Shown here piece after piece: positions 24,182-26,363 of a DNA stretch of 64,000 nt. The stretch's first letter is position 1. Each line of letters begins with the position of its first letter. Origin of the DNA: Paenibacillus jilunlii (lineage in GTDB: Bacteria > Bacillota > Bacilli > Paenibacillales > Paenibacillaceae); the NCBI RefSeq assembly GCF_900102965.1, contig NZ_FNGM01000006.1, positions 1 to 64,000 on the forward strand. The letters run 5' to 3'. Below the pieces are notes generated by a model. It was not told where the DNA came from and did no database searches. It worked only from the letters and a program-made list of their open reading frames with translations. The translations under genes were made by a program, and so were the position numbers.

Positions 24182-25861
24182 TTACACTTCCATGATGATC
24201 GGAAGAATCATCGGTCTGCGGCGTGTTTGCTCATAGAGGAAACGGCCTAGTGAATCCTTAACACTTGTTTTCAGTGAAGCCCACTCATTGACCTTCTCGC
24301 TCATCAGACGCTGCAGCGTGCCGGATACAATCCGGTTTGCTTCGTCCAAGAGCCCTTCGGATTCCCGTACATACACAAAGCCGCGGGAGATAATATCCGG
24401 TCCGGAAACAATAGCGCCGTTCTGCTTGCTCAGCGTGACAACCACTACAAGAATACCGTCCTGGGACAGCAGCTTGCGGTCACGCAATACAATGTTGCCT
24501 ACATCCCCTACACCCAGTCCATCAATCAGCACGTTGCCTGCTGTTACCTTGCCGGCTCTGCGTGCTGAACCGCCGGAAATCTCAATGACTTCACCCAGTT
24601 CAGTGATGAAGATGTTGGCTGGTTCTACACCTACGGATTCCGCAAGCAGTGCATGTCTACGCTGCATCCGGAATTCACCGTGAATAGGAAGGAAGTATTT
24701 CGGTTTCATCAGGTTGAGCATAAGCTTCAGTTCTTCCTGGCTCCCGTGTCCAGATACGTGAACACCGGAATTGGATCCGCTGTAAATTACGTTGGCGCCC
24801 AGCCGGAACAGTTCATCAATGGTACGGCCGACATATTTCTCATTGCCTGGTACCGGGGTTGCCGCAATAATTACGGTGTCGCCCGGCAGGATGTCAACTT
24901 TGCGGTGACTGGAGCGCGCCATACGGGTAAGCGCCGACATAGGCTCACCCTGGCTGCCTGTGCACAATACCACTACGCGGTTGCCAGCCATTCTGTTCAT
25001 TTCTTCCGGCTCAATCAGCATGCCGTCTGGAACGTGGAGATACCCAAGCTCGGAAGCAATGGATACTACATTGACCATACTGCGTCCGATAACGGTAATC
25101 TTGCGTCCCGTAGATTCTGCAGCATTTACTACCTGTTGGATACGATGCACGTTGGAAGCGAAGGTTGCAACCACCACACGCTGTTCGGCTTTGCGGAAAA
25201 TGTCCTCCAGAACGATGCCGACATTCTTCTCCGAAGGAGTAAAGCCCGGCTTCTCAGCATTTGTGCTGTCTGACATGAGTGCGAGCACGCCTTTTTGTCC
25301 GATTTCAGCCATCCGGTGCAAATTGGCAAACTGGCCATTCACTGGAGTATGGTCAAATTTGAAGTCACCAGTGTGAACAACATTGCCCTCCGGCGTCTCG
25401 ATGCATACGCCGACCGAGTCGGGAATACTATGATTTGTTCTGAAGAAAGTTACTTTGAGCGAGCTGCCCAGTTCAATTTCCGAATCCTCATTAATCAGAA
25501 TCCGTTTGGTTTCGCCAAGCAGGTTCGCTTCCTTGAGCTTGTTCTCTACAAGGCCCAGCGTAAGTCTTGTTCCGTAAACCGGAACATTCAGGTTCTTGAG
25601 CACGTACGATAACCCGCCAATGTGATCCTCGTGTCCGTGGGTAAGAACAATACCTCTGACTTTGTCACGGTTCTCAGTTAAGTAAGAGATGTCAGGAATA
25701 ACAATGTCAATCCCGAGCATATCTTCTTCCGGGAACTTAAGTCCCGCATCCACGACCACAATATCGTTTCCGTATTGTACCACATACATGTTTTTTCCGA
25801 TCTCTCCGACTCCGCCCAAAGCGAAAATCGTCAATTTATCGTTGTTGTTTTTTTTGGACAA
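24182..25861 (-). CDS. rnjB: Ribonuclease J (beta-CASP metallo-beta-lactamase RNase)
   Basis: 559 aa 5'-3' exo- and endoribonuclease of mRNA decay and rRNA maturation. The metallo-beta-lactamase motif LTHGHEDHIGG (about 72-82), MSDSTNAEKPG and the beta-CASP motifs (VVLCTGSQGEPMSAL, SGHGSQEEL, LPIHGE) are all intact. The locus (before tepA, after dapA) is that of rnjB in B. subtilis, hence the symbol, but the full zinc motif makes it look catalytically competent, so it may equally be called rnjA. TTG start with AGGAGG upstream. The leader is about 350 nt and highly structured. Confidence 0.94.
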   Translation of the reverse strand: MSKKNNNDKLTIFALGGVGEIGKNMYVVQYGNDIVVVDAGLKFPEEDMLGIDIVIPDISYLTENRDKVRGIVLTHGHEDHIGGLSYVLKNLNVPVYGTRLTLGLVENKLKEANLLGETKRILINEDSEIELGSSLKVTFFRTNHSIPDSVGVCIETPEGNVVHTGDFKFDHTPVNGQFANLHRMAEIGQKGVLALMSDSTNAEKPGFTPSEKNVGIVLEDIFRKAEQRVVVATFASNVHRIQQVVNAAESTGRKITVIGRSMVNVVSIASELGYLHVPDGMLIEPEEMNRMAGNRVVVLCTGSQGEPMSALTRMARSSHRKVDILPGDTVIIAATPVPGNEKYVGRTIDELFRLGANVIYSGSNSGVHVSGHGSQEELKLMLNLMKPKYFLPIHGEFRMQRRHALLAESVGVEPANIFITELGEVIEISGGSARRAGKVTAGNVLIDGLGVGDVGNIVLRDRKLLSQDGILVVVVTLSKQNGAIVSGPDIISRGFVYVRESEGLLDEANRIVSGTLQRLMSEKVNEWASLKTSVKDSLGRFLYEQTRRRPMILPIIMEV

Positions 25862-25989
25862 ATGAATCTAACCCTCCTATGATGTTGGACGTCATACTTT
25901 TATTTGCAAACAATAAGCTTCATTATCTCAGCGGCGCTGAACACTTCTTCAAATTGCTGATAGCTTCCACGATCAACAAGGAAATTCCA

Positions 25990-26121
25990 TAAGTCTGTAA
26001 AATTTCGCCTTGCGAAAATACCTGAATCGGGCAGTGAAACCCTTCTTGAGCGGAAAAACCCCGTCAAAATTCACTGCCCGCGCCCCTTGCGCGAAAATCT
26101 GGCAACATTAGCACAGACTTA
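25990..26121 (-). promoter_or_regulatory. Multi-stem structured element in the RNase J leader
   Basis: Outer arms ATAAGTCTGT (25990-25999) and ACAGACTTAT (26112-26121) enclose three further stems. These are the long arm CGGGCAGTGAA/TTCACTGCCCG (26029-26039 with 26070-26080, 11 bp), an AATTTCGC/GCGAAAAT hairpin (near 26002-26019), and CGCGC/GCGCG (near 26078-26095). Read as RNA on the minus strand it folds as a multi-branch junction about 130 nt long, ending 129 nt before the rnj start. No known riboswitch family is recognised. Confidence 0.65.
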
Positions 26122-26144
26122 TTCAAGGACCTATCCTGTCTCAC

Positions 26145-26162
26145 AATGTAAAAATACATTGA
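26145..26162. repeat. Small AT-rich hairpin in the RNase J leader
   Basis: CAATGTA-aaaa-TACATTG, a 7-bp perfect inverted repeat about 25 nt upstream of the multi-stem element. There is no U-tract. Confidence 0.5.
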
Positions 26163-26212
26163 CGGAAGATTACCGCATATTTAATTTTAACCGCACCCAG
26201 TCACTTAATGAC

Positions 26213-26242
26213 ATTATACATGATTTTTTTGGCAAAAGACAA
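26213..26242 (-). promoter_or_regulatory. Sigma-A promoter of the RNase J gene
   Basis: TTGTCT (26237-26242), 18-nt spacer, TATAAT (26213-26218) on the minus strand. The start near 26206 gives a leader of about 345 nt. Between here and the dapA terminator (26243-26326) no further signal is seen. Confidence 0.75.
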
Positions 26243-26326: not shown

Positions 26327-26363
26327 AAAAGCCGGCACCCCTTTAACGAGGAATGCCGGCTTA
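26327..26363 (-). terminator. Terminator of dapA
   Basis: AAGCCGGCATT, 12-nt loop, TGCCGGCTTTTG on the minus strand. Confidence 0.88.

Follow-up and report, generated by a model that had tools for sequence, protein, structure and literature searches.

A conserved motif at the predicted 5' end and a lineage-specific structured insert in the rnj (RNase J) leader of Paenibacillus jilunlii

The rnj locus and its leader

The 64,000-nt stretch of the Paenibacillus jilunlii genome analyzed here (contig NZ_FNGM01000006.1, positions 1 to 64,000; hereafter, the window) carries on its minus strand rnj, a gene that encodes a 559-residue RNase J and begins with TTG (positions 24182 to 25861). RNase J is a central mRNA-decay enzyme of Gram-positive bacteria. 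The rnj product matches the RNase J model TIGR00649 at 689 bits and scores 802 against the RNase J1 model, for which the cut-off is 820; its best relative of solved structure is RNase J 1 (3zq4), and, among the named loci, those with the most similar proteins are from Paenibacillus species. A promoter conserved in relatives (26213 to 26242, minus strand) consists of TTGTCT (26242 to 26237) and TATAAT (26218 to 26213) with a spacer of 18 nt and represents the sole promoter-like match on the minus strand between positions 25800 and 26450. With transcription predicted to start at 26206, the leader extends for 345 nt to the TTG at 25861, which bears out the original prediction of a leader of about 345 nt behind a clear promoter. 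A strong terminator-like hairpin of 14 pairs is found on the same strand after dapA (26329 to 26362), so that most rnj transcription probably starts at the promoter described above.

Several features on the minus strand can be distinguished within this leader. A conserved motif, referred to as block 1, lies at its predicted 5' end; a hairpin of the form CAATGT...ACATTG, whose stem is conserved in the close clade, is found at positions 26144 to 26161, and a large structured element occupies positions 25989 to 26125. Further downstream there is an inverted repeat, TTCAGCGCCGCTGAG (25927 to 25941), with a core that is nearly invariant within the close clade. The 3' end of the leader contains block 2 (25884 to 25894), the Shine-Dalgarno (SD) sequence AGGAGG (25873 to 25878), and the TTG start codon (25859 to 25861).

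Block 2, TGACGTCCAAC, is invariant in nearly all close relatives, is represented by clade-specific forms elsewhere, and is absent in some lineages; it often stands just 5' of the SD sequence, as GACGTCCAAC in the window and as TCGTCGTCAAT or ACTACAACTGAATA in other genomes. It is less general than block 1. Four loci have a pair of SD-like stretches; the first, AGGAG, is continuous with block 2 and seemingly a part of it, and the second, AGGAGG, follows some 15 nt later, beside the start codon. In seven others, inverted repeats of the GAAGC...GCTTCGC type replace block 2 just 5' of the SD sequence, with several such repeats in a row in one of them. The leader also contains, at +35, a 9-nt complement of the SD region (25868 to 25876), TAATCTTCC (26164 to 26172), which is kept with almost no variation in 34 of 35 close relatives. 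In none of the 65 leaders was the best duplex between leader and SD sequence so good that at most 1 of 60 shuffles matched it, and in a divergent subclade the best such duplex is a different one. A switch in which TAATCTTCC pairs with the SD region is kept here as a possibility of little weight.

A structured insert at rnj

The original prediction described a large four-stem structure in this leader, and all of its parts are present on the minus strand. The outer stem pairs positions 26113 to 26121 with 25990 to 25998 in 9 Watson-Crick pairs, followed by a G-U pair (26112-25999). Within it lie hairpin 1 (26080 to 26092), an inner arm (26070 to 26080 with 26028 to 26038) that bears an apical stem (26061 to 26067 with 26046 to 26053), and hairpin 2 (26003 to 26017). 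The inner arm and hairpin 1 cannot both form at full length, as both claim the C at 26080. A 146-nt piece of the minus strand folds at -53.1 kcal/mol (z = -3.7, with 0 of 200 shuffles as good). The plus strand of the same piece also scores highly (z = -4.9, again with 0 of 200 shuffles as good), so that the folding energy does not choose between the strands; the whole leader, folded as 354 nt, stands out less (z = -2.05, equaled or bettered by 3 of 100 shuffles).

Conservation of the pairs was assessed in the close clade. The leader alignment A2 contains 35 of the 65 extracted leaders, with near-duplicates dropped and one locus left out at the extraction step; A5 is a subset of 31 of these 35. 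In an unfitted alignment of 35 leaders, the predicted pairs were formed in 85% of cells, ranging from 97% in hairpin 1, 89% in the inner arm, and 88% in the outer stem to 83% in the apical stem and 67% in hairpin 2. This compares with 36 to 45% when the partners were slid, which upholds the expectation that pairing would be conserved in the rnj leaders of relatives, and with 84.1% in shuffles of the 3' letters, none of which (0 of 500) reached the observed value. The covariation score of the unfitted alignment was reached by 2 of 500 shuffles, and pairs with double changes showed no excess (7 versus 5.2 in the shuffles). When 52 leaders were aligned to the covariance model, an alignment that leans to the structure, double changes appeared in 19 of 35 pairs versus 8.2 in the shuffles (0 of 500 as high). 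RNAalifold recovered, unaided, five outer-stem pairs and hairpin 1 from the model-fitted alignment; from A2, it recovered hairpin 1 but not the outer stem or the inner arm. The pairing is thus kept, with modest compensatory support.

The distribution of the element was traced with a covariance model built from 31 leaders (R3). It matched 55 of 100 genomes of the same genus, once in each, and all 55 matches lie inside the rnj leader, according to coordinates compared by eye with the promoter and leader alignments. Searches of two hand-chosen sets of loci gave matches in 16 of 59 and in 52 of 52, respectively. BLAST finds a single copy of the element in the P. jilunlii genome. Although the element is rich in inverted repeats and lineage-specific, as a palindromic mobile repeat might be, a repeat that sits in this leader by chance would hardly be confined to one copy per genome that is always at rnj; we therefore reject this suggestion of the original prediction as very improbable. 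The search of relatives proposed along with it gave a mixed answer: the matches do lie always at rnj, and the compensatory changes are modest, but 45 of the 100 genomes have no match.

Nine of these 45 genomes have long but diverged leaders, and one, from an assembly that is 71% complete, shows no alignment to the promoter or the leader either. In the remaining ones, the alignment is confined to the promoter with block 1, to the SD region, or to these two parts, and in nine of these genomes that were fetched the distance from block 1 to the SD sequence is 45 to 49 nt. The promoter and leader align over their full length in 53 of the 100 genomes, P. jilunlii included. Many other genera have leaders of just 30 to 95 nt that lack the structured element. 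Overall, the spacer between block 1 and the SD sequence is highly variable, from 30 to 365 nt.

Pairwise comparison of the 35 close relatives gives a mean identity of 0.95 for block 1 and of 0.98 for block 2 with the SD sequence. Inside the element it falls to 0.53 (98-120), 0.69 in the inner arm, and 0.62 and 0.65 in the 3' part, with hairpin 1 (0.89) and the 5' arm of the outer stem (0.91) as exceptions. We consider it improbable that the 132-nt structure is itself the control element, for example a landing site for RNase J. Its pairs are kept, also in the model-fitted alignment, and all matches to the model are in rnj leaders, but short leaders that retain block 1, both within the genus and in other families, lack the structure, its interior is more variable than its flanks, and its double changes do not exceed those of shuffles in the unfitted alignment. 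The proposal of a cis element at rnj is therefore retained in part: the element is single-copy and tied to the rnj leader, and a role as the general target of control is not supported. The structured element is real, cis-linked, and lineage-specific, the spacer of one lineage between block 1 and block 2.

A conserved motif at the predicted mRNA start

Much of the conservation in the leader lies outside the structured element and had been overlooked: a motif at the 5' end is common to nearly all leaders. In the window, this block 1 is AAGTGACTGGGTGCGGT (26190 to 26206, minus strand) and spans +1 to +17 of the predicted rnj mRNA; in RNA form, it reads AAGUGACUNG(G)UGCGG. Among 80 RNase J loci that were located solely through their protein, the mRNA often starts with AAGTGACTGG(G)TGCGG or a sequence near to it. 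Allowing at most three edits and requiring a -10-like box at the right distance, block 1 was called in 61 of the 80, including 57 of the 60 loci with at least 70% protein identity and 4 of the 20 below 70%; it is missing at this threshold from the other 3 and 16, respectively. The same call was made in 2 of 1,600 dinucleotide shuffles and in none of the 80 opposite strands or 80 gene interiors.

A larger set comprised 280 of the 299 loci with RNase J that were examined, a count that includes close relatives and some places fetched twice and represents 194 distinct promoter-plus-block-1 sequences. The distance from the -10 box to block 1 is 6 nt in 247 of these loci, 7 nt in a further 31, and 5 nt in the remaining 2. 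Across families, the start codon of rnj is TTG in 274 of the 280, GTG in 2, and ATG in 1, with 3 unassigned. TTG is a less used and weaker start codon, and at rnj it is unusually constant, which points to control of initiation.

How far block 1 reaches was examined with R1, a sequence-only profile of the promoter and block 1. At an E value of at most 0.01, it matched 295 of 295 genomes of the family, 292 of 296 of the order, and 213 of 398 of the class, mostly once per genome, in samples that overlap and with the weakest matches partly due to chance. Among the matches listed, RNase J is encoded downstream in 132 of the 135 loci fetched (a few places were fetched twice); the other three are weak partial matches with E values from 0.001 to 0.004. 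In 28 further loci from genomes with two matches, RNase J is found in all 17 with an E value of 2e-7 or better, including two paralogues at 70 to 71% identity, and in 0 of the 11 with an E value of 0.0015 or worse. In one genome of the order, both R1 matches lie away from RNase J. The idea that the motif also serves other genes was rejected: the 11 weak matches lie in loci that lack RNase J, and most of them stop short of a full block 1. Six loci encode RNases J with about 70 to 72% protein identity to that of the window and have block 1 behind a different promoter; some of these are the second RNase J copy of the same organism.

A shorter and more diverse profile, R2 (-17 to +24), matched 204 of 250 genomes of the class at a lax threshold (E ≤ 0.5), where the weak matches include chance ones. 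Outside the class, it gave no strong match, and the best one (E = 0.0024) is not at RNase J, among the matches listed. With the same scope, RNase J is found behind 5 of the 24 weak outside-class loci that were fetched, from three families. The mRNA starts of these five loci outside Bacilli resemble block 1, as in AAGTGGCAAGGGCGG and AAGCGATTTGGTTCGG. When genomes were chosen for a weak or silent R2 response and 30 of their RNase J loci were examined, 6 had the pattern AAGTGA-N(4-7)-NCGG beside a -10-like box, with at most one substitution. In one additional locus, a gene for a short protein, which we take to be rpoY, stands between the promoter and RNase J, and the mRNA starts with GAGTGTAACATACGG, perhaps a degenerate block 1. 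An alignment of diverse sequences (A4) contains 56 entries, 55 of them drawn from 75.

Other readings of the leader found little to recommend them. Pairing of block 1 with block 2 (for example, UGGGUG with CGUCCA) was judged by eye and set aside, with block 1 varying in the close clade and block 2 fixed. A transcription attenuator was dropped: there is no terminator-like site on the minus strand of the window leader and none common to the long leaders. A leader peptide starting from the GUG of block 1 was dismissed because its frame shifts between families, and a riboswitch because the compact leaders of 30 to 95 nt have no shared fold by inspection. Rfam 15 at the gathering threshold returned no family in the window and none in 16 related loci; nothing was found in the rnj leader up to an E value of 10 or in 12 loci with 3-mismatch copies of block 1.

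The fixed spacing of block 1 to the -10 box, and hence to the predicted +1, together with its persistence where the promoter sequence differs between families, suggests that it is read as RNA. A stretch conserved from +1 could also act in DNA, as the operator of a transcription factor or as an initially transcribed sequence governing how RNA polymerase escapes from, or pauses at, this one promoter. Such a DNA element is a possible but unlikely reading. It would explain why block 1 abuts the promoter at a fixed distance and would accommodate the TCATG just upstream of the -10 box, which is also conserved in Paenibacillaceae (1.25 to 1.76 bits); however, the upstream bases differ between families while block 1 stays constant, block 1 does not read as a palindrome, and the P. 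jilunlii genome has no second target, the rnj copy being the only one with fewer than 3 mismatches to block 1.

Possible control of RNase J synthesis

We propose that rnj is controlled in cis by its leader, with block 1 at the center of the control region, and that RNase J synthesis would thereby be subject to feedback at the mRNA 5' end; we hold this reading tentatively, at somewhat less than even confidence. The old core of this region would be the 5' end of the mRNA (block 1, from +1 to about +17), acting together with the weak UUG start and, in many lineages, with the SD-proximal block 2. A factor, most likely RNase J or its decay complex, would recognize the 5'-terminal motif on newly made rnj mRNA; with RNase J in excess, that mRNA would be attacked from its 5' end or initiation at UUG would be blocked, so that the supply of RNase J would track demand. 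In the clade of the window, the space between the blocks has presumably grown into the structured insert, which may tune access to the SD sequence or slow a 5' exonuclease. Control by RNase J of its own mRNA, as originally suggested, remains our best guess, with the 5'-terminal motif rather than the structure as its proposed route. This motif with the TTG start is a deeper finding than the structured insert.

RNase J is known to attack RNA from the 5' end, as PMC10303841 also states, and the constant position of block 1 at the predicted 5' end of rnj mRNA accordingly suggests feedback there. Neither energy nor alignment revealed a family-wide helix, and no pairing between the blocks was found, so that recognition would be of linear RNA or DNA. 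In its general form, the proposal is that AAGYGR-N(4-7)-NCGG at +1, within the first 15 to 17 nt, is an old "address label" by which RNase J senses and adjusts its own supply, a linear 5'-terminal autoregulatory motif used across Bacilli and probably in other classes of Bacillota. This generalization is offered with considerable doubt.

A reader of the RNA other than RNase J, such as a small molecule, another RNA-binding protein, a ribosomal factor acting at UUG, or a small RNA, is conceivable but not probable. The near-constant TTG and the position of block 2 beside the SD sequence in many lineages fit translational control of this kind. However, there is neither a conserved riboswitch-like fold nor an Rfam match, and the P. 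jilunlii genome contains no stretch elsewhere that is complementary to block 1 with fewer than 3 mismatches.

The 17-nt motif is linked to a single gene, keeping its place at the 5' end of the predicted mRNA, and it is present in all sampled genomes of the family and much of the class. No description of it was found in the portions of the open-licence literature covered, a limited set of papers and terms, or in the available text of PMC3937233. Likewise, open-licence papers of limited scope yielded nothing on how the amount of RNase J is set in Gram-positive bacteria, a question that the motif makes accessible to simple reporter tests. Leader-based control of an RNase is already known as a kind; the 5'-terminal motif is absent from Rfam.

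Two groups of Escherichia coli elements allow comparison. The infC and rpsT genes have weak start codons under translational feedback; rnj resembles them in the retention of a weak start codon in evolution and differs in that a role of the start codon as the sensor is not indicated. The other is rne5, the 5'-UTR element of RNase E, an internal stem-loop that is bound by the enzyme. As with rne5, the proposed control region sits in the leader of the very gene that encodes a principal mRNA-decay RNase, and through it the enzyme would adjust its own supply. Unlike rne5 with its internal stem-loop, the short and long rnj leaders have no helix in common, their stems are lineage-specific, and the constant part is a linear 5'-terminal motif; if the proposal is correct, such recognition by an RNase of its own message would be new. 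PMC10303841 draws a contrast with rne5 as well, credited to Schuck et al. 2009. The same source describes how RNase Y of Bacillus subtilis limits its own mRNA, partly by cutting within the initial 50 nt of the leader and so giving RNase J1 entry; rny thus offers a parallel from the same decay system, although it is a different gene and the part of the paper at hand describes no conserved motif for it. Helicobacter pylori shows increased activity of the rnj 5'-UTR promoter region when RNase J or RhpA is absent (PMC5874925). Although this organism belongs to a distant phylum and the accessible text gives no motif, it provides a case of RNase J feedback on rnj through the 5' region, and together with RNase Y it makes feedback on rnj plausible here.
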